Source of the DNA: Ensifer sp. PDNC004
GTDB lineage: Bacteria > Pseudomonadota > Alphaproteobacteria > Rhizobiales > Rhizobiaceae
Assembly: GCF_016919405.1 (NCBI RefSeq)
Contig: NZ_CP070353.1
Coordinates: 1,240,001 to 1,304,000 of the forward strand
Length of the DNA stretch: 64,000 bases
Reading direction: 5' to 3'
Of the stretch, positions 32,026 through 40,963 are shown piece by piece. Under the pieces are notes generated by a model. The model worked only from the letters and a program-made list of their open reading frames with translations, had not been told where the DNA came from and did no database searches. Numbering within the stretch: position 1 is the stretch's first letter; every line of letters begins with the position of its first letter. The position numbers were made by a program, and so were the translations under genes.

Positions 32026-32054
32026 AAGCCCGCCTCATCGAGGCGGGTTTTTTC
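32026..32054 (+). terminator. terminator after aapP
   Basis: CCCGCCTC / GAGGCGGG with a three-base loop is followed by six T residues, 27 bases past the aapP stop. The opposite strand has AAAAG-rich flanks, so its complement also provides a T run for the convergent caspase gene that ends at 32074. It is probably a shared, bidirectional terminator and marks the left edge of the accessory block. Confidence 0.92.
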
Positions 32055-32073: not shown

Positions 32074-33603
32074 CTACTCGACGCGATAGCGCAGGGTGCC
32101 AACCGACCAGTGGATGCCGCGCGTGTCGAGATCCTCGGTCCAGTTCTTCTGCAGCCGCGCGACGATCTCGCTCAAGGTCTCGCGCGCATCGACCTCCACC
32201 TTGAGGCCCCGCGACATTGGCGCAAGATCGCTCAGGTCGACCGCATCGCTGACGACAAGCGCAACGAAAATGCCGTCCCCCTCACCCGATGCCTCGAAAT
32301 CGAAGCCGTAATATTCATCCGGCAAGGTCAGCGGCACGCCCGGCGCCAGCGTCGTGATCTTTTGCGCAAACTCGTTGGGAAATATCTGTGTTGCCTTGCC
32401 CTGGCCGCTGACATCGAAAAGCAGGAGATTGCCGGCCGTGCGGCTGTTGACCGTCAGTTTGAAGACCTCACCGGCCTTCATGGTGGTCGGCCTATCGATC
32501 GAGAGCATGACATCGGCGGCTTCGCTCTTGCCGATGATATCACCGATGGCATCGATGGCGTTGACCGCCTGATAGACCGGCACCGCCGCATCCGGGGTGT
32601 TCGCGTTCTGGTCCGCGCCCTGCCCGTTGCCATCCGCATCGCGCTTTTCCGGCACCATCGCGCTGTCGCCGAGCGCCTCGGGCTTGCCGTCCAGTTGCGG
32701 GTCGAGATTGCCGCATTCTTCCTGCGAGGCGCAGTAGGACGCAGATTGCGCCTTTACATACTCCAGAAGCTCGGCGTTGCTCGTCAATCCGTTGCCATTG
32801 GCATCGGCAGCGTTGCCGGTCTGGCCGGCGACGAAGGCTGCTGTGAAAACACCATGCCGATCCGCAGTCGGAAGCCGGGCATCGTCCCAGGCGACCTGAT
32901 AGGGCGCCGCCGCGCTCCAGGCGGTCACCCCGGCTTCCACGAGCTTCGTCTTGTCGACGAGGGCAAGATCGATCCGAAGGCCGCGGGTCAGCGCCTGCTC
33001 GACCGGCTTGGCATCGGGACGCGGGAGAAAGCGGGCGCCGTCGATAGGTTTCGCAATGTCCTCGGACAGCGACCGGGAGATCGTGCCGGAGTGACAGGCA
33101 TCGATCACGACCGTCACCGCGCGCCCCTTCAGGCGCTCCAGCACCGCATCGATCTCGTCGTCGAGGACAGCGCCTTTCCAATCCGTTTCGCCGGCAGCGA
33201 TGTCGGCAGGCGCAATCGCTTCATCCAGCCCATCCGCCTCATCGCCATCCGCATCCGTCACCTGCAGGCCGTGGCCTGAAAAATAGAGATAGACGCGATC
33301 GCCGGGCTTGGTCGCATCGACAAGCCAGCCGTTCATGGATGACAGGATTTCCGCTCTGGTCGCCTGCCCGTCCTTCAGCACGCGGATCGACGTACTGTCG
33401 AAGCCGAGCCGTTCCGTAAGCAGCTTTTGCATCGCGATGAGGTCGTTTGCCGGCCCCGGCAGCGAAAACTCCGCCGGCAGGTTCTGATAGTTGCCGACCC
33501 CGATCAGCAATGCCCGATCGCCGGCGACGGCAGGAGCGGTGAGCAGCGTGAAACACGCAAGGATATGGAAGAACAACACCCACGATCTCAGGCTCGCGCT
33601 CAT
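32074..33603 (-). CDS. secreted caspase-like (metacaspase-type) protein with EF-hand loop and DUF4384-like domain
   Basis: The 509-residue protein has a signal peptide (cleavage near AVA27-G28) and a peptidase C14 domain from about 29 to 260 with the catalytic pair H111 (YFSGHGLQ) and C170 (VIDACHSG). The DGDEADGLDEAI stretch (119-130) is the acidic motif of metacaspases, which cut after Arg or Lys. An EF-hand-like loop D267-A-N-G-N-G-L-T-S-N-A-E278 follows. Residues about 364-452 form a DUF4384-like domain. It is the last gene of a five-gene operon; its ATG overlaps the stop of the caspase paralogue upstream by four bases. Targets are unknown. The catalytic pair is intact, so activity is plausible. 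Confidence 0.85.
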   Translation of the reverse strand: MSASLRSWVLFFHILACFTLLTAPAVAGDRALLIGVGNYQNLPAEFSLPGPANDLIAMQKLLTERLGFDSTSIRVLKDGQATRAEILSSMNGWLVDATKPGDRVYLYFSGHGLQVTDADGDEADGLDEAIAPADIAAGETDWKGAVLDDEIDAVLERLKGRAVTVVIDACHSGTISRSLSEDIAKPIDGARFLPRPDAKPVEQALTRGLRIDLALVDKTKLVEAGVTAWSAAAPYQVAWDDARLPTADRHGVFTAAFVAGQTGNAADANGNGLTSNAELLEYVKAQSASYCASQEECGNLDPQLDGKPEALGDSAMVPEKRDADGNGQGADQNANTPDAAVPVYQAVNAIDAIGDIIGKSEAADVMLSIDRPTTMKAGEVFKLTVNSRTAGNLLLFDVSGQGKATQIFPNEFAQKITTLAPGVPLTLPDEYYGFDFEASGEGDGIFVALVVSDAVDLSDLAPMSRGLKVEVDARETLSEIVARLQKNWTEDLDTRGIHWSVGTLRYRVE

Positions 33604-35153
33604 TGGCCCTGACCTCTCGTGTAAAGCGGTTGAACGGCAATCGTACTTTCGCTCCCCTCCAGGCGCGTTTCGAGCAAGCGCAGCAACGCCGCAGCATCGA
33701 GGTTCGAATTGGCGAAGGCGGCCGCGATCGCATCGACAGGCGCATTGGTCGCGATGGCGACCAGATGGTCCGCGCCGAAGGGTTTGACCACTTCCAGGTC
33801 ACGCAGCTTGAAGGCATGGCTTTCGCTTCCGGCAATCTGCACGTCGAGCAGCTGCGCTTCACCTGTGTTGGCGAGGTTGAAGACCAGCATGTTGGCATAG
33901 CCGCCCTGCGGCGCCTCCACATTCAGGCGGTCGCCGGCAAAATAGATGTCCTTGACGGGTTTTAGCGAAACGGCCCCCGGGCTCTGCGCCGCCAGCGCCT
34001 TCAGAAAATCCACCAGGACGAATTTGTCGACCACGCCCTGGAGCCTTTCGGGCGCGACATGTTCGGCGGCGACGTCTCCGTTCGGCGTATAGAAGACCCC
34101 GGATGCTGCCTCCCACCGATAGGGCATGCCATCGCCGCCGATATTGGCAAGATCAGGCATCTCACCGACGACGCGCAATGGCAGCGTACCCGTCCATCCG
34201 GTTTCGCGTGGCGACTTCAGCGTCTGCTTCGTGCCACTCGCTGTTGGCGCCACGCCGAACTTGGCGCTGCGCGGCAGGGACAGCACGATCTCCTTGTCGG
34301 AGCGCGCCAACTGTGGCGTGAAGTTCGGCACCTGCAAGGCTTCCGATTGCAGCTTGACGTTGGAAAACACATAGTCTTCGAGTTCGACCCGCGAAATCCG
34401 ACCGTCACCGTCGCGATCGGCGGCGCCTTCCAATGCACGGGCAAAGCTCCAGCTCAGGGCGCCGCGCGGCTCGCCGCCGATCACCACCTCCGGCGTCGGC
34501 TGGCTTTCGAGCGATGCGGCGAGGATCGTCACCTGCGACAGCTCCACATCCCTCACCTTGGCGCCGGACAGCGCCTCCTTCGACGGCGGCGGCACCTTGG
34601 CGCGCACCATCGGCGCCAGCCGCGTCTTGCCGGAGATCGAGCGGTTCATGCCGCCGGAATAGCAGCTGTCGGAGACGAACAGCACGTGAATGCCCTTGGC
34701 TTCCGCCTCCGCGAACCAGGCGCTGAGTTCGTTGTCGACGATGATTTCGCTCGCCGTCTCCTCGGCACGTGCCCGGTCGAAGCCCGGCAATTCCAGAAAT
34801 TCGTCGAGCCCGTCTTCCTCGCTGCCGGCGACCAGCTCCGGCATCTGCGCACCGTGCCCGGCATAGGTGAAGACGATCGTATCGCCGCGCGTCGCACCCG
34901 CGACCAAATCGATCCAGGCGGAGCGTATGGCCGCCTTCGTTGCCTGCTCATTGACGAACTGGCGGATCGGGCCGACGTCAGCCGCCTTCAGCGCCTGCGC
35001 CACATCGAGCGCATCCTTGACCGCGCCGTCGAGGCTCACTTCGTGCGGATAGACATCGACGCCGACAACAAGCGCCGAGGTCGCCGCGGTGGCGACGGAT
35101 GCAGGCAAGGCGATCAAGCCTGTCGCCAACAGGATTTCGCGCAGCCCCTTCAC
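33600..35153 (-). CDS. secreted caspase-like protein with canonical EF-hand loop
   Basis: The 517-residue protein has a signal peptide (to about residue 23) and a peptidase C14 domain with H100 (TYAGHGAQ) and C164 (VSDSCYSGG). The acidic EEDGLDEFL segment (112-120) resembles the metacaspase S1 pocket. A perfect 12-residue EF-hand loop lies at 246-257 (D246, D248, D250, G251, I253, S254, E257), at the same place as the loop of the downstream paralogue. The C-terminal part (about 395-468) resembles the DUF4384 module. It overlaps the OmpA-domain gene and the second caspase gene by four bases each. The two caspases are clearly diverged paralogues and not a recent duplication. Confidence 0.84.
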   Translation of the reverse strand: MKGLREILLATGLIALPASVATAATSALVVGVDVYPHEVSLDGAVKDALDVAQALKAADVGPIRQFVNEQATKAAIRSAWIDLVAGATRGDTIVFTYAGHGAQMPELVAGSEEDGLDEFLELPGFDRARAEETASEIIVDNELSAWFAEAEAKGIHVLFVSDSCYSGGMNRSISGKTRLAPMVRAKVPPPSKEALSGAKVRDVELSQVTILAASLESQPTPEVVIGGEPRGALSWSFARALEGAADRDGDGRISRVELEDYVFSNVKLQSEALQVPNFTPQLARSDKEIVLSLPRSAKFGVAPTASGTKQTLKSPRETGWTGTLPLRVVGEMPDLANIGGDGMPYRWEAASGVFYTPNGDVAAEHVAPERLQGVVDKFVLVDFLKALAAQSPGAVSLKPVKDIYFAGDRLNVEAPQGGYANMLVFNLANTGEAQLLDVQIAGSESHAFKLRDLEVVKPFGADHLVAIATNAPVDAIAAAFANSNLDAAALLRLLETRLEGSESTIAVQPLYTRGQGQ

Positions 35154-36049
35154 TTGCCCACATCCACTTCCACCCGCCGGTCGAGCTGGTTCAGCATCAT
35201 CTCGTCATAGGCACTCGGATCGTCCGGCTTGAACGGCTCCTCCTCGCCCTTGCCGACAACGGTCCAGGTGCCGGGATAGCCTGCATCGACAAGGTAATGC
35301 GCCAGGGCCTCGGCACGGGCGATCGACAAGACCATGTTCGCTTCTGGCGTGCCGACCGGGTCGGTGTGACCGATCAGGGTGATTGCGGGCGGCTTTGCCG
35401 ACTTCAGGCATTCGAACAGATCCTTGGCCGACTCGAGACCTTCAGGCGTGAACTCGGCCGTGCCGAAGACATAGCGCACCGGCGTCGCCTTCTTCCGGAT
35501 CGAGACGCCGCGATAGGAAAACCTGCAGGCGCCGCGCGCGGCGAGCTTGACCGGCTTGGTTGCGGCGAGCCGCATTTCCGAGGCCAGGCGATCCAGCCGC
35601 TCGATATAGGCCTTGTCCGGCGCCATCCAATCGGGCGTCAGCTCCTCGCTTGCCGCATCCTCCAGTGCCTGCTGATAGGCTGTCGCCGCGGCGGCGTAAT
35701 CCTTGCGCTCGCGCTTGATGTCGCCCAGTGCGTCGAGGATCTGCCAGGGGCCGCCGGCGTCGCGGCTTGCGGCCGTCAGCTCCGCTTCGAAGGTCTCAAG
35801 CTTGGCGCCGTACCCCACCGCCGCTGCAATGCGGTTGAAGGTTGCGAGCGCCACGACGCGCCGGGTCAGCGCGATCTCGGTCGCCGAGCAGCCCTTCATG
35901 TTTATGGGATCGGCCGCCACCTTGGTGCCGGCCTCGTCGGCGCGGTTCAACGCCTCCGAAGCCAGACGAAGGCCGTCGCAGGCCATGGCCGGCGCGGTGA
36001 AGACCGCCAAAGCGGCCGAAGCGAGGAGAAATGCCCGTAGCTGAACCAT
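35150..36049 (-). CDS. periplasmic TPR-like and OmpA-domain protein
   Basis: The 299-residue product has a signal peptide (cleavage near AMA23-C24), a helical region with a TPR-like unit at about 104-134 (KDYAAAATAYQQALED), and a C-terminal OmpA/MotB domain from 193. That domain has the peptidoglycan-binding motif GHTDPVG...NMVLSIARAEAL with D230 and R245. It should anchor the complex to the cell wall. A cysteine at the predicted signal end is not in a good lipobox. It lies between the multi-haem protein gene (10 bases upstream) and the caspase gene (4-base overlap), which points to a scaffold role for the system. Confidence 0.82.
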   Translation of the reverse strand: MVQLRAFLLASAALAVFTAPAMACDGLRLASEALNRADEAGTKVAADPINMKGCSATEIALTRRVVALATFNRIAAAVGYGAKLETFEAELTAASRDAGGPWQILDALGDIKRERKDYAAAATAYQQALEDAASEELTPDWMAPDKAYIERLDRLASEMRLAATKPVKLAARGACRFSYRGVSIRKKATPVRYVFGTAEFTPEGLESAKDLFECLKSAKPPAITLIGHTDPVGTPEANMVLSIARAEALAHYLVDAGYPGTWTVVGKGEEEPFKPDDPSAYDEMMLNQLDRRVEVDVGK

Positions 36050-36059
36050 GGCTCGCCCA

Positions 36060-39000
36060 TCAATCCTTGATCTCGAACGTCACCATCTGAACACTGCTGG
36101 CACCGGCATCGCCCTGCGCCCGCTTGGCCAGGTTGATCGCCAGCCCCCGCGTCGGCGGCAACCGCGACGTCGCGACATACTGCCGTGCCTTTTCCACCGT
36201 CAGCCTCTGGTCTCCGAGGCCGCCGGCGCGACAGAAGGCCAGCATCGTTTCGGCCGGCGCCGGCGTGTCGAAGGTGAGCGTGCCTGTGCCCGGCTGCGGG
36301 ATCAGGCGCCGCTCGCCCGGCTTAAGCGTGGTGTTGCCGATCATGACGTCGGGGATGACCTCGACATTGCCGTTCTCCTCGACATAGAGGATCTGCAGTT
36401 CGCAGGCCTGGTTGGCAGTGAGTTCGAAGGAAAGCTCGTCGCCGACCTTCGCTGTCGTCGACTTCACGTTCAGTGCCAGTTCGAGCTTGTGGTCAGCCCC
36501 CGCATCGTCCTTGCGATAGTCCGGCACGGCGGCGGCGATCGACTGCGGCCTGGCGTCCGCCATCGGCTCGGAACCGGCAACGTTGATCGCCGTCGTGTCG
36601 AGCGGACGCCGCTGGGTGAGCGGCGCCATCAGCAACGCATATTGCTGCTCGACCTCGTTGCGCGGAATGGTGCCGCCGGCTTCCAGCGTCGTCACCCAGT
36701 CGATCCCGAGGCGCAGGACATCGGTGTTCGTAACCCGCTTGATCGCCTCGGAGAATTGCTTAGGCGTCATGTCGAACTCGGCCGCCAGGGCATCGAAATC
36801 GAGTTCGTCCTCGTACTTGTCGGCGAAGTAGGTGATGATCTCGGCCTCGCCCGGCGCGTGCTTGCTCTGGAGGCCACCATCGGGCGTTGGCTCGGTGACG
36901 CCGAGCACCTTCAGCGCGTTGACGAAGCGCTCCCGGTCCCTGCGATAGGTTTCGTCCAGTTCCTCCTGCTTCACATACATCGCAAGCAGTACATCCTGCT
37001 GGTCCTTGCTGAAGAGCGTCGATGTCTCGATCTGCTCGCGCAACTGATCACGCTTCGAAAGGATACCGTCGGCGTGGCAATCGACGCAGGACCGCGCATT
37101 GATGATCTCGACACCCTTGCCGATCGGTCGCTTACGGAACGACACGATCGTCGTCGGCCCGACGTCGAGCTGCTTTCCAGCTGATGTCGAGAGGTAGTAG
37201 CCCTGCAGGCCGTTCGGCAACGAGAAGATCATCTCGCCACCGTCATGCTCGAACGGCACGAGGCCCGCATCGAGCGGCGCCAACTCCCTCGGCCCGTGCG
37301 GGAAACGCTTCAGCACCTGCTTGCCGACGTCGCCGCCAAAATCATAGGACTTCCAGTAGTAGCCGCCGAACGGCCTGTCGTGCCGCTCGAGCATGCGGTT
37401 GTGGTCGGAAACCCCGGACGATCCGTCGGCAAACCCGGCCCGCAGCACGTCGTGCCTGCGAATGTTGCCGGCGACGTCGATCTTGAAGCGCCTTTCGAGT
37501 TCGGCGATCTGGGTCGGCAACTTCATCAGACGGTTGTAGATCTCCGGCCGCGCGCCGTTGCTCATGAACCAGTCGACCCGCATGATCGGCAGTTGCGTCG
37601 CCGTTTTCTTGGAGAGCGCCGAAAGCGACGCGTCGCTGTCGGGATCGATCCCATAGAAGTAGCGCTTGATCAGGAAGTCATAGTCCGCCGTATCCCATTG
37701 CAGTTCGCGCAGATCGACGCGCACCAGCAAGCCGTTGGTGCCGTCGACCTCTGTCGGCAACACCAGTTTCGGCCCGTAGGAAAGCGAATTCAGAAGCTTC
37801 TTGAAGCCGCCGGCAAGCACGTCCATCCGTTTCATGAATGTCTGGTCGTCCTCGCAGCCCATCATGCCGTTGTACTGGTCGCGATAGGAGAAGTAGCGCA
37901 TGTAAGGGCGGTCGAGGGCGCTGACCGTCTCGATGTCCTTCAGCGCCGCGTCGACGAACTGGCCATAACCCAACATCGGACGGGCGCGCGCCGGTTTCGC
38001 GGCGACCGTCTGCGGCAGGCTCTTTTCGTTCAGAGCGTTGATCCAGTCCTCCAGGACCTTGATCTCCTCGGCAGAGGGCCGCTTGCCGAGCGGCATGCGG
38101 CCGCTGACGACAGTCGCGTAGAGCCGTGACTTCGAGGCGTCACCGGGGGTCACGAAGTTTGCGTCGGCGGCAATCGAAGCGAGGTCGCCTGCCGGGTAGC
38201 TCCCTTGCGAACTCTCGCCCGGTCCGTGGCAATTGCGGCAATATCTGCCGATGAAGGCATCGGCCTGTTGCGCAAGCGCCGCATTGCCGCCGCCCAGCGC
38301 TTCGGTCGCCGTGCTCTCCTTGCAGACGGCCGTGACCGATTGCGCCACCGGCGCCGGCGCCTTTACCTCGCGATCGGCAAGGAAGGCATAGATCGCACGG
38401 CGATCGTCGTCCGAAAGAACGCCCAGCCCCTTGGCGATACGCCGCATCACCGGATCGCTGATCGGCGCGCCCGAGAGCTTCTTGCCTTCCTCGATCAAGC
38501 CCTTGGTGAAAACGTCGGGCGAGGCAAGACCGGCCATCTTCGCCTTGCTGATGTCGGGCGCGACCGCGCCGCTCAAATCCTTTTCCCCCTCATAGGCGCG
38601 CTCCAGGTCGAGCCCGTAGGTCGTGGTGCGCGGCGTGTGGCAATCGCCGCAGCCGCCGACATTCTCGACCAGATAGCGACCGCGCTCGGCTTGCGTCTCC
38701 TCGCGCGGCTGGTAGGCCGGCACCGTGAAGTGACTGCGCTTCCAGAGCGTGATCGTCGTCTGGCGACTGAAGGGGAAGGCTATCTCATGCTCCTTGGACG
38801 CCGCATCCGCCTGGGGCAACGTCTCGATGTAGGCCTTGATGTCGAGCGCATCCTCCGGCTTCATGCCGCCATAGGAGGTGTAGGGCATGACCGGATAGAG
38901 GTTGTTGCCCTCCCGGTCGAGACCGACCAGCACGGCGTTCAAAAACTGCGCGTTGGTCCAGCCGCCGATGCCATTGGCGTGTGGCGATATGTTCGGCGCA

Positions 39001-39287
39001 TAGAAGGTGCCGATCGCCGTCTTCATCTCCATGCCGCCCGATAGCAGTTCGGTGTTGTCGCCGGAGCCGTGGCAGGCGCCGCAGCCTGCGGCGTTGAACA
39101 TGTACTTGCCGTTGTCGACATTGGCCTTGTAGGTGGAGAAGGCATCTTCCGCGAAGGCATCGCGCGCCGAGGCGCTAGCGGGACAGAGCGAGACGGCGAC
39201 CAGCGCCGCGAATGAAGCGGCCAAAGATCCACGGATAAACCCGGACAAGAACGAGGCGCCTTCTCGCTTTCTCTGCAGACCGCGCAT
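36060..39287 (-). CDS. large exported tetra-CxxCH cytochrome c-like protein with C-terminal DUF4384-like domain
   Basis: The 1075-residue protein has a signal peptide (ending near ASASA41). It carries four CxxCH haem sites: C69-H73 and C213-H217 (a di-haem pair as in alcohol-dehydrogenase-type cytochrome c subunits), C350-H354 in a third cytochrome c domain, and C734-H738. Residues about 436-730 form a domain I cannot name, with conserved-looking KLLNSLSYG, RVDLRELQWD and LPNGLQGYYL; the fourth haem motif follows it (NARSCVDCHADG). Residues about 934-1022 resemble DUF4384, as in the two caspases. I chose the ATG at 39287 with GGGAG eight bases upstream over a GTG three codons earlier. It should take electrons in the periplasm, perhaps from the membrane flavocytochrome encoded upstream. 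Confidence 0.82.
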   Translation of the reverse strand: MRGLQRKREGASFLSGFIRGSLAASFAALVAVSLCPASASARDAFAEDAFSTYKANVDNGKYMFNAAGCGACHGSGDNTELLSGGMEMKTAIGTFYAPNISPHANGIGGWTNAQFLNAVLVGLDREGNNLYPVMPYTSYGGMKPEDALDIKAYIETLPQADAASKEHEIAFPFSRQTTITLWKRSHFTVPAYQPREETQAERGRYLVENVGGCGDCHTPRTTTYGLDLERAYEGEKDLSGAVAPDISKAKMAGLASPDVFTKGLIEEGKKLSGAPISDPVMRRIAKGLGVLSDDDRRAIYAFLADREVKAPAPVAQSVTAVCKESTATEALGGGNAALAQQADAFIGRYCRNCHGPGESSQGSYPAGDLASIAADANFVTPGDASKSRLYATVVSGRMPLGKRPSAEEIKVLEDWINALNEKSLPQTVAAKPARARPMLGYGQFVDAALKDIETVSALDRPYMRYFSYRDQYNGMMGCEDDQTFMKRMDVLAGGFKKLLNSLSYGPKLVLPTEVDGTNGLLVRVDLRELQWDTADYDFLIKRYFYGIDPDSDASLSALSKKTATQLPIMRVDWFMSNGARPEIYNRLMKLPTQIAELERRFKIDVAGNIRRHDVLRAGFADGSSGVSDHNRMLERHDRPFGGYYWKSYDFGGDVGKQVLKRFPHGPRELAPLDAGLVPFEHDGGEMIFSLPNGLQGYYLSTSAGKQLDVGPTTIVSFRKRPIGKGVEIINARSCVDCHADGILSKRDQLREQIETSTLFSKDQQDVLLAMYVKQEELDETYRRDRERFVNALKVLGVTEPTPDGGLQSKHAPGEAEIITYFADKYEDELDFDALAAEFDMTPKQFSEAIKRVTNTDVLRLGIDWVTTLEAGGTIPRNEVEQQYALLMAPLTQRRPLDTTAINVAGSEPMADARPQSIAAAVPDYRKDDAGADHKLELALNVKSTTAKVGDELSFELTANQACELQILYVEENGNVEVIPDVMIGNTTLKPGERRLIPQPGTGTLTFDTPAPAETMLAFCRAGGLGDQRLTVEKARQYVATSRLPPTRGLAINLAKRAQGDAGASSVQMVTFEIKD

Positions 39288-39334
39288 GAAACCCACTCCC
39301 TAAAACAATAGAATCGCTACTGAAATCTGCTGCA

Positions 39335-40594
39335 CTATCGAAACTGAAATTGCTCGAATTCAACCCGCTTCGGCCGCTTGCCGAGATCTTTCAGGCCCTT
39401 GACGATCGCCTCCCTGAGGGGTGGCGGACCGCAGAACCAGAGATCGGCGTCCGCCGGATCGATCGCGCTGCCGCTCGCAAGCTTGGCCGCGTCCAAGCGC
39501 CCGTCCACGGAGCTGTCGTGCAGGACAAACGTGAAGTTGCCGAGCTTTCCGGCCTGCCCCTCGAAGGTTTCCAGGCCGATCGCCTCGCGCCGATCGCGCA
39601 CGCAATAGACCATGTGGATGTCCTGCCCTTCTTGGCCCGTCAGATGCCGCGCCATCGCCAGGAACGGCGTGACGCCGATGCCGCCGGCGAGCCAGATCTG
39701 CTTCTTGCCGCCACGGCGGTGGTTGAAGCGGCCATAACCGCCCTCGAGCTTCAGCCGGTCACCGACAGCGATACTGTCGCGCAGGGCCTGGGTGTAATCG
39801 CCAAGCGGCTTGATCGCGAAGCGCACGATGCCGTCAGGTTCGATACCGGCAATCGTGAACGGATGCGGCTCACGCAGCCCTGGCTTCAGCACCCGCAGAA
39901 AACCGAACTGCCCGGGCTTGGCGCGCAGGGCACGCCGCAGCGGCCGCGCCGCAATCACCGTCGCCCCGTCCTCGCGGGCGACATCGAAGACCTCGTAGCG
40001 GCGGGTTCGCAGCCAGGGCAGCAGCTGGGTATAGGCATAGCTGAGGATGCCAAGCGTCGCGAACATGTTGAGATAGACAGCCAGAAGCGCGGTGCCGTCA
40101 TAGGGACGCTTGATGAACATCTGATGGAAGGCGACCATGATGAAAAGCAGGCCGATGAAGCGGTGCGTATACCGCCACAGATGGTACGGAATCTCGATCT
40201 TCGTCCGCGGGATGATCTTGACGATGCTGAGAACGAGCAGAACGACGAAACCGTAGAATGCGTATTTTCCTGCGGATGCCGCAAGCTGGTTCAGACCGCT
40301 CGTCAGCGCCAGGCCCTTGAAGTCGGGTTTCAGGAAATAGTGCACGAGGATGAGGCACAGCACCGAAATGCCGATCCTGCGGTGAAAGTGATAGACGCGG
40401 TCGAGGCCACCAAAGAGCGCTTCTACGAACGGCGGGCGCGCGGCCATGAACTGGGCGACCGCCATGCCGACGAAGGCGGCAGAGGAGGCCATCAGCGAAA
40501 ACGTCGTCAATGCATTGGTGTGACTGACTGCGGGTACGGCCAGCAGCGCCGCAAATGCCATCAAGGACCAGACCAGAAACGCGCCCACTTGCAT
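39335..40594 (-). CDS. ferric reductase/NOX-like membrane flavocytochrome b
   Basis: The 419-residue inner-membrane protein has six or so membrane helices with two pairs of haem-binding histidines, H71/H85 and H144/H157, spaced as in the ferric reductase/NOX family. A cytosolic ferredoxin-reductase domain follows with HPFTIAG (FAD, from H244), GGIGVTPF (304-311, NAD(P)H) and CGPPP (388-392). It should pass electrons from cytosolic NAD(P)H to the periplasmic side. It is the first gene of the operon; the large cytochrome gene starts 47 bases after its stop. AGGGG lies before the ATG. What it reduces (metal, oxygen or the CxxCH protein) is not visible. Confidence 0.87.
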   Translation of the reverse strand: MQVGAFLVWSLMAFAALLAVPAVSHTNALTTFSLMASSAAFVGMAVAQFMAARPPFVEALFGGLDRVYHFHRRIGISVLCLILVHYFLKPDFKGLALTSGLNQLAASAGKYAFYGFVVLLVLSIVKIIPRTKIEIPYHLWRYTHRFIGLLFIMVAFHQMFIKRPYDGTALLAVYLNMFATLGILSYAYTQLLPWLRTRRYEVFDVAREDGATVIAARPLRRALRAKPGQFGFLRVLKPGLREPHPFTIAGIEPDGIVRFAIKPLGDYTQALRDSIAVGDRLKLEGGYGRFNHRRGGKKQIWLAGGIGVTPFLAMARHLTGQEGQDIHMVYCVRDRREAIGLETFEGQAGKLGNFTFVLHDSSVDGRLDAAKLASGSAIDPADADLWFCGPPPLREAIVKGLKDLGKRPKRVEFEQFQFR

Positions 40595-40963
40595 CTTGCG
40601 CCCCTCAACGCCGATGGCTGACGGTTGTTGCCCAACCTTGTGCCTGTTGCCTTCGATCGCCTACGACCAAGGAAACAGCAACCAGGTTCTTGCCGCAACG
40701 GCCTTCACACCTCTTTCGTGTGCGGGCCTTGTTGGGAGAGTGGCAAGCACCTTTCGGTTCGTCAACACGATTCCGATTGGAAACGTCCTATGAGGTTCGC
40801 TTATTCATGCCTTTGAAATTCGTATTTTTTAAGCATTCACTTATTTTATCGTGCGCGTCGGAAAACCGCCGCTTGTGACAGGCGTAAATCCGGACAATCT
40901 GGGCGCTTGCCTGGCTGCAGGAATTCGTGCAAGCTGCTGATATATCAGCACCAAAGGAACGGC
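40595..40963. promoter_or_regulatory. 369-base divergent promoter region, flavocytochrome / gntR
   Basis: No gene is seen. The right half (about 40800-40860) is AT-rich compared with its surroundings, as expected for promoters. A TTGACG on the minus strand (at about 40756-40761) could be a -35 element for the flavocytochrome operon, but I find no good -10. On the plus strand CTTGTG at 40872 with CAATCT 17 bases on is a possible weak promoter for gntR. The perfect palindrome at 40935-40950 is described separately. Regulation of both units from this gap is likely but not proved. Confidence 0.4.
40935..40950. promoter_or_regulatory. 16-bp perfect palindrome, candidate GntR operator
   Basis: TGCTGATATATCAGCA is perfectly self-complementary and ends 13 bases before the gntR start codon. 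FCD-type GntR regulators bind short palindromes with an AT core, so this is a good candidate for autorepression. Bound protein would block the ribosome-binding region or promoter of gntR; its effect on the divergent operon about 340 bases away is less clear. Confidence 0.65.

Follow-up and report, generated by a model that had tools for sequence, protein, structure and literature searches.

The window analysed here is the whole 64,000-nucleotide stretch of contig NZ_CP070353.1 of Ensifer sp. PDNC004 (positions 1,240,001 to 1,304,000). It comes from a genome of 6.78 Mb; among named relatives, Ensifer adhaerens and further Ensifer strains are the closest. A minus-strand run of five genes spans 40594-32074 in the reading frames of the window. 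It encodes a membrane flavocytochrome (FER), a four-haem protein (CYT), an OmpA-type protein and two caspase homologues (CaspB and CaspA), in this order. Our subject is this gene set and the possibility that its haem protein controls its caspases. The genes are as follows.

39335..40594, minus strand: FER, membrane flavocytochrome of the NOX/ferric-reductase kind, 419 residues (Pfam domains, motifs and PDB matches)
36060..39287, minus strand: CYT, exported four-haem protein with a conserved ATG start and four CxxCH
35150..36049, minus strand: OmpA-type wall-binding protein, 299 residues, OmpA domain at 35473-35216 (PF00691, E 4e-12)
33600..35153, minus strand: CaspB, exported C14 caspase homologue with H100/C164 (Peptidase_C14)
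32074..33603, minus strand: CaspA, exported metacaspase-type protein with H111/C170 and a C-terminal DUF4384 (Peptidase_C14)

The FER-CYT gap is 47 bases when CYT begins at ATG 39287, whose Met is shared by at least 90% of 75 aligned homologues, and 38 bases when the mechanical open reading frame (ORF) start at GTG 39296 is taken. Ten bases separate CYT from the OmpA-type gene, and the OmpA-type/CaspB and CaspB/CaspA junctions are 4-base overlaps. A preliminary description of this DNA had proposed a five-gene minus-strand operon with this order, gaps of 47 and 10 bases and two 4-base overlaps; the genes, order, gaps and overlaps were borne out, the 47 with the ATG start. Compared with six relatives, all five genes were under purifying selection (omega 0.07-0.21). 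The values were 0.07-0.10 for FER, 0.08-0.10 for CYT, 0.10-0.18 for the OmpA-type gene, 0.12-0.15 for CaspB and 0.14-0.21 for CaspA, the fastest-evolving of the five; three neighbour genes gave 0-0.12 in the same comparison. The signal sequences of the four products downstream of FER were judged by eye from the translations.

FER carries Ferric_reduct (PF01794), FAD_binding_8 (PF08022) and NAD_binding_1 (PF00175) domains, each above its Pfam cut-off. Its membrane part holds the histidine pairs H71/H85 and H144/H157, and the HPFT and GGIGVTP motifs are also present. Such a combination of a haem-bearing membrane domain, its two His pairs, and domains that bind FAD and NAD(P)H is that of the NOX/ferric-reductase kind, so that the NOX-like flavocytochrome proposed earlier was confirmed. 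The top PDB match was 8qt6 (E 8e-39), which we take to be SpNOX. Two further matches, 8qq5 (E 8e-27) and 8qq1 (E 2e-26), are SpNOX domain entries, and SpNOX can reduce cytochrome c and accepts NADPH and NADH equally, according to part of the source paper (PMC11031084). FER resembles SpNOX in domain order, motifs and PDB match; unlike it, the FER gene directly precedes a cytochrome c gene. Because of this position, CYT rather than oxygen may be the electron acceptor of FER.

The OmpA-type protein contains HTD and LSIARAE motifs. Only its OmpA domain is secure; the TPR part fell under every Pfam cut-off (best E 0.016), and of the TPR/OmpA protein described before only the second half stands. CaspA and CaspB scored 80.2 and 42.4 bits for Peptidase_C14 against a cut-off of 21.4. 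Their nearest PDB relatives were metacaspase-1 4f6o (CaspA, E 2e-19) and 3bij (CaspB, E 8e-7). Both window proteins have the C14 domain with catalytic His and Cys, which some CaspA homologues do not, and the earlier claim of two metacaspase-type proteins with intact His-Cys pairs held, with export judged by eye. An Asp lies two residues ahead of the catalytic Cys, a residue that presumably has meaning for Arg/Lys cleavage specificity.

CYT could be divided into the following parts.

38364..39146, minus strand: N-terminal relay with haem 1 (CGACH, 39083-39069) and haem 2 (CGDCH, 38651-38637), by homology to a dehydrogenase cytochrome subunit
38091..38240, minus strand: haem-3 segment (CRNCH), PSCyt1-like (PF07635), first half of the dihaem module
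36579..38000, minus strand: unnamed haem-4 domain (CVDCH, 37088-37074), second half of the dihaem module, by model and homology
36234..36449, minus strand: DUF4384 (PF14326, 28.1 bits against a cut-off of 27)

The Cys and His of all four motifs were invariant in the 75-row alignment, which agrees with the four CxxCH sites reported before; that the protein is exported was again judged by eye. Residues 50-368 matched the fructose dehydrogenase (FDH) cytochrome subunit 7w2j (E 1e-38), and the structure of the relay matched 8jej (Foldseek, E 3e-14). The relay is thus homologous to cytochrome subunits of the FDH/alcohol dehydrogenase (ADH) type. Neither a catalytic dehydrogenase subunit among the five genes nor a kinase domain in CYT was found in the Pfam search. 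On the haem-3 segment, PF07635 gave E 0.0017, just under the cut-off, and kinase homologues of this segment lie above it. The haem-4 domain had no Pfam or NCBIfam family above cut-off. It was modelled with high scores (predicted local distance difference test 92.4, predicted template modelling score 0.91), the model had no PDB match at E <= 0.001, and alignments revealed many invariant polar residues besides CxxCH. The two CxxCH of the module, marked by C352 and C736, are separated by about 380 residues within a colinear conserved domain. The C-terminal DUF4384 is common to CYT and CaspA. One CYT homologue (P0106) bears a C-terminal domain of the formylglycine-generating-enzyme type, and no DUF4384 was found in it. 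CYT is thus built from a relay of the dehydrogenase type and a dihaem module. As this module forms the outer half of receptor kinases elsewhere (see below), "sensor" fits better than "electron carrier" alone.

The five genes were present in the same order in 21 of 24 named relative loci, including L023 where CaspA misses its first half. These loci belong to Ensifer, Sinorhizobium, Pararhizobium, Shinella and one further member of Rhizobiales. The remaining three, from Nitratireductor and Salaquimonas metagenome-assembled genomes, have retained FER-CYT. Decayed copies were seen as well, with CaspB in two frames in L019 and CaspA split in L105. In the Ensifer-group genomes the set sits between the same neighbour genes. 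When the haem-4 region alone served as probe, 48 of 397 genomes in the order and 2 of 385 in the class gave a match, both counts including the genome of the window. This distribution is patchy, as for an accessory system. Full-length CYT was rejected as a family-wide probe: 278 of 297 family genomes matched it, most of them solely via the widespread N-terminal cytochrome part, and a long match over the C-terminal half too was listed for 27 of the 297.

Sixty regions of up to about 10 kb either side of the haem gene were fetched, covering 40 of the 47 other matching genomes of the order. We used 57 of them for the chance expectation and left out L068, L082 and L110 as too short. Class A loci encode a CYT of about 1100 residues with four haem sites. 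Class B loci encode a protein of 596-1039 residues with two haem sites (none in L117 and L118), and no FER. In 35 of the 57 loci the DNA fetched around the haem gene held a caspase, where caspase density predicts about 1.3. The count was 21 of 27 for class A (0.60 expected) and 14 of 30 for class B (0.73 expected), in 11 families overall. The gene set is real and conserved beyond chance. FER was detected by tblastn in 22 of the 27 class A loci, 21 of which have a caspase; the sole FER-positive locus without one (L099) lies on a 14.8 kb contig. Across the order FER is optional for the system. An apparent FER-CYT fusion in L063 and L066 (ORF-caller frames of 1528 and 1511 residues) was rejected, since tblastn placed FER as a separate frame before CYT.

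The neighbourhoods of the haem protein varied among loci. Of all 32 class B loci, 9 have as a neighbour a separate diheme gene resembling the N-terminus of CYT, 11 a cytochrome c' gene, 14 a caspase and 9 an OmpA-type gene. The cytochrome c' gene stands beside the two-haem protein in L077 (2938-3417) and ten other class B loci, which hints at nitric oxide (NO) or another gas ligand as input. In L097 (11361-15539) a TPR-CHAT protein follows FER-CYT directly, in the output position, and general-kind caspases lie to either side; we assume that it has another protease-type fold. In one family (f33, L067-L072) a four-haem CYT occurs without FER or caspase in the fetched DNA, and an OmpA-type gene lies divergently in four of the six loci.

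The dihaem module was also found in proteins of quite different architecture. A profile search with the class B proteins returned 59 homologues. WD40 repeats occurred in three of them and a protein kinase in one, and these domains were confirmed in three of these matches. Searching with the outer part of that kinase gave 4627 homologues at E <= 0.001. A kinase domain was present in 45 and an FHA domain in two of the best 120 of these, a kinase share that the kinase-length query biases and that should not be taken as a frequency. For 44 of the 45 kinase homologues, exactly two CxxCH, spaced by about 380 residues, come after the kinase motif, and a hydrophobic segment lies between the motif and the pair in 43 of the 44. 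From haem 3 on, CYT aligned with kinase P0174 at 33% identity over 541 residues (E 2e-66) and with P0192 at 30% over 559 residues (E 3e-68). By source name, P0192 and P0194 come from Thalassoglobus and P0288 from Planctomycetaceae. Both haem sites were kept among the kinase, WD40, FHA and DUF4384 forms (12 rows). P0174 and P0180-P0297 represent a large family in which Ser/Thr kinases span the membrane and carry a dihaem region on the outside. As judged by these alignments, the C-terminal half of CYT was shown to be a modular dihaem unit, which elsewhere, including in planctomycetes, makes up the outer part of transmembrane Ser/Thr kinases. A kinase with a dihaem unit outside the membrane has an ordinary receptor architecture, and this is the main reason why we read CYT as a sensor. 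No published account of the dihaem kinases was found among open-licence papers, and a 2024 paper on planctomycete kinases mentions neither cytochrome nor heme in the part covered here (PMC11032199).

The two caspases likewise belong to a group of their own. A tree of 114 caspase domains contained one divergent clade of 43 rows (SH-aLRT 99), which took in 33 of 45 operon-linked rows, 3 of 17 near rows and 7 of 52 rows from elsewhere. This tree came from a quick search with SH-aLRT as the only support and a midpoint root, as did our earlier one. Rows were omitted either as near-duplicates or for balance (L008-L015, L018-L025, L028-L030), as were three long rows (L088_12, L066_2, L026_4). The outside rows include 16 further regions with low-scoring caspases; an earlier set of 34, mostly the best C14 scorers, gave 0 of 34 in the clade. 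Among the matches listed, the linked-clade caspases scored towards the lower end of the C14 matches in their own genomes. The seven outside rows in the clade include four caspases of L149 and L152 that lie beside an OmpA-type gene, and two rows on long branches (L153x37, L154x63). In L149 (8571-12700; the locus ends at a contig end region) and L152 (3394-9900), an OmpA-type gene followed by two caspases may be a separate sub-module. CaspA-like and CaspB-like sub-clades each hold class A and class B loci, so the association of both lineages with the haem protein is old. Within the sampled domains, the tree thus placed CaspA and CaspB in a clade whose members mostly occur next to the dihaem module. 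With this clade, the 21 of 24 ordered loci and the 35 of 57 caspase-bearing loci, the genes do not scatter independently, which the preliminary description had named as a refuting outcome, though L149 and L152 have the OmpA-type gene and two caspases with no CYT in the fetched DNA.

We next consider the catalytic pair, scored by aligned columns; a strict search recovered the two motifs together in only 81 of the 135 caspase rows. By columns, His was present in 123 rows (4 gaps, 8 other letters) and Cys in 120 (10 gaps, 5 other letters). Within the caspase clade His-Cys was kept in 33 of 36 linked or near rows, comprising 22 of 22 in the CaspB lineage and 11 of 14 in the CaspA lineage. Two of seven further Ensifer CaspA rows had also lost the catalytic His. 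CaspA without this His (R, Q, Y or E instead) was seen in L008, L012, L079, L086 and L105; in L079 and L086 the Cys is missing too, and CaspB keeps both residues. The losses are clean changes within an otherwise kept motif. Conservation of the dyad, on which the preliminary description depended, therefore holds for CaspB and largely for the 135-row set and fails for CaspA in 3 of 14 clade rows. Considering the dyad losses and the higher omega, we read CaspA as a drifting partner. CaspB looks like the constant protease, and CaspA like a partner able to become a pseudo-caspase, which would make them a possible protease/pseudo-protease pair; the preliminary description did not contain this reading.

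Two non-coding features flank the genes.

32029..32047, minus strand: terminator-like hairpin directly after caspA, with an 8-pair stem and a T-rich tail (weak evidence)
40595..40906, minus strand: upstream region of FER, with the conserved blocks TTGACGAA and GCTTG..AGTCT in an alignment of 10 Ensifer-group loci

Across the region 6 terminator-like sites were found, against 6.9 in shuffles. A scan of 40595-40906 contained no consensus sigma-70 site.

From these data we propose that the locus encodes a periplasmic haem/redox switch, fed from NAD(P)H, which gates caspases near the cell wall; we consider the chances of this reading to be even. FER would take electrons from NAD(P)H in the cytosol, pass them via FAD and two b haems to the periplasmic face and hand them to the relay of CYT (haems 1-2), which would poise the dihaem module (haems 3-4). 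The module would also meet an oxidant, NO or the respiratory chain, and an oxidant, NO or a failing electron supply would shift its haem state. The change might reach the caspases through the DUF4384 domains of CYT and CaspA, with the OmpA-type protein holding the caspases near the wall. CaspB would serve as the constant protease and CaspA as a regulatory partner, at least where its catalytic His is lost. Cleavage would fall on envelope proteins, probably after Arg or Lys, and the most likely role of the system would be a checkpoint for envelope redox or nitrosative stress. In class B loci, which have no FER, the neighbouring diheme protein and cytochrome c' are possible inputs. A sensor fused to a kinase in other bacteria would here be wired to proteases by the operon. 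This sensor-to-protease logic is, as a proposal, well supported by genome architecture, and from it we infer the electron flow, the gating and the role of the system.

Several observations weigh against this proposal. Fusion to a kinase elsewhere does not prove sensing by the module of CYT, which could be an enzyme. The fetched DNA of 22 of the 57 loci holds no caspase, and the expected counts may be too low, as genome-wide caspases were counted by the C14 model and nearby ones by more sensitive profiles. Five class A loci of f33 have neither FER nor caspase, which suggests that the module can work without both. The loss of the CaspA dyad in some genomes and the truncated CaspA of L023 indicate that at least CaspA is dispensable. 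The general caspase clade holds 12 of the 45 operon-linked caspases and those of several FER-CYT loci. L149 and L152 have the OmpA-type gene and two linked-clade caspases without CYT in their fetched DNA.

The best rival is that CYT is an electron-transfer enzyme powered by FER, either similar to a dihaem peroxidase or removing NO or oxidants, and that the caspases are quality-control or processing proteases for CYT or its substrates. The invariant polar residues of the haem-4 domain speak for it, and so does the FDH-type relay, which normally serves an enzyme; moreover, stand-alone modules without kinase or caspase are common among the homologues listed and the class B loci. We still regard it as rather unlikely, because the module is fused to kinase, FHA and WD40 domains elsewhere, the caspases form a dedicated clade and the five genes contain no dehydrogenase subunit. 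The set could instead consist of two units that are neighbours for co-expression only and have no effect on each other, FER-CYT with a periplasmic redox task and OmpA-CaspB-CaspA with a task in envelope proteolysis. L149 and L152, just mentioned, and the lack of FER in every class B locus speak for this, and in a 2012 survey of prokaryotic caspases, as far as its cited part goes, 14 of 217 metacaspase operons contained OmpA (PMC3501461). Such an arrangement is nevertheless improbable: the 35 caspase-bearing loci far exceed the expectation, the association spans 11 families and both CYT architectures, and CYT and CaspA have DUF4384 in common.

The last alternative is a system for self-killing or against invaders, with the haem protein as a sensor of infection or damage and the caspases as the agents of cell death. 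Self-killing and defence were among the roles suggested in the preliminary description; this reading gained no support from any result and appears to us slightly more improbable still. Caspase-fold proteases do act in such systems elsewhere, according to part of a 2021 survey of conflict systems (PMC8195603), CaspA evolves fastest of the five genes, and the distribution over the order is patchy. However, PADLOC-DB 2023 returned only a generic caspase model for CaspA and CaspB and weak MotB/TPR for the OmpA-type protein, with nothing for CYT or FER and no recognised defence partner among the five genes. All products except FER appear to be exported, away from phage replication, and in the Ensifer group the set has a fixed place between the same neighbours, not in an island. 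Taken together, the interpretation given in the preliminary description is partly supported: it holds for the multi-gene system of flavocytochrome, multi-haem protein, OmpA anchor and exported caspases, which is conserved, but it missed the two-part build of CYT, the optional status of FER and the TPR-CHAT protein after FER-CYT in one locus.

We further suggest, tentatively and with less than even confidence, an unnamed kind of signalling: a periplasmic dihaem c-type receptor, coupled to kinases in planctomycetes and others and, in Hyphomicrobiales, to its own clade of exported metacaspases, fed by a NOX-type electron exporter, with CaspB constant and CaspA drifting to a pseudo-caspase. If this is real, a c-type cytochrome would control caspase-fold proteases in a bacterium, as a working parallel, not a shown ancestor, of the link from mitochondrial cytochrome c to caspases. 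Mitochondria are thought to descend from the alphaproteobacterial class, and the locus could show whether a c-type cytochrome and caspases are functionally linked in alphaproteobacteria. Bacteria have numerous caspases, many of them with no known trigger, and in the 2012 survey 70 of the 217 metacaspase operons had no function assigned (PMC3501461). This locus offers a testable trigger, a spectroscopically readable haem module beside its presumed outputs, in culturable soil bacteria. The signal sensed by the module would also help to explain the large set of uncharacterised receptors in the 4627-homologue family.

No named system covering the five-gene set was found in the open-licence literature, which is consistent with the same statement in the preliminary description. 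Within the material searched, the assembly is outside any named system and the haem-4 domain outside any family model, and on these grounds we rate the assembly as categorically new; the NOX-like, C14 and OmpA parts are of known kinds. The words cytochrome, heme, electron and redox are absent from the main text of the 2012 survey (PMC3501461). A 2019 paper on pseudo-orthocaspases, in the main text covered, reports DUF4384 in an alphaproteobacterial clade and does not mention cytochrome (PMC6426788). The part covered of the conflict-system survey leaves OmpA, periplasm and NADPH oxidase unmentioned and mentions cytochrome once (PMC8195603).

Each part of the locus can be compared with a known system. 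The FDH/ADH cytochrome subunit (7w2j, 8gy2) resembles the N-terminal haem relay of CYT, but CYT extends into the dihaem module and DUF4384. In animals, mitochondrial cytochrome c acts upstream of caspases. The likeness is by analogy only, a c-type cytochrome upstream of caspase-fold proteases; the cytochrome is different, the Pfam search found no NB-ARC/STAND adaptor among the five genes, and there is no evidence of common descent. Prokaryotic metacaspases or orthocaspases, including pseudo-orthocaspases, share with CaspA and CaspB the C14 fold, a His-Cys dyad lost in some members, OmpA neighbours and DUF4384, as far as the cited parts describe them (PMC3501461, PMC6426788), whereas the linked caspases form a divergent clade. 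In sCache_heme, another family of c-haem sensors, the outer sensor domain likewise binds a c haem covalently and is tied to signalling modules, according to part of a 2026 preprint (PMC12889525). That family is DUF3365/Tll0287, for which CYT had no Pfam match at E <= 1, and the module of CYT has two haems about 380 residues apart. The dihaem Ser/Thr kinases (e.g. P0192, Thalassoglobus sp.) have the same module, alignable at 30-33% identity over 541-559 residues with both haem sites. There it is fused to a kinase across the membrane, whereas CYT combines it with a relay and DUF4384, and the caspase genes lie nearby.

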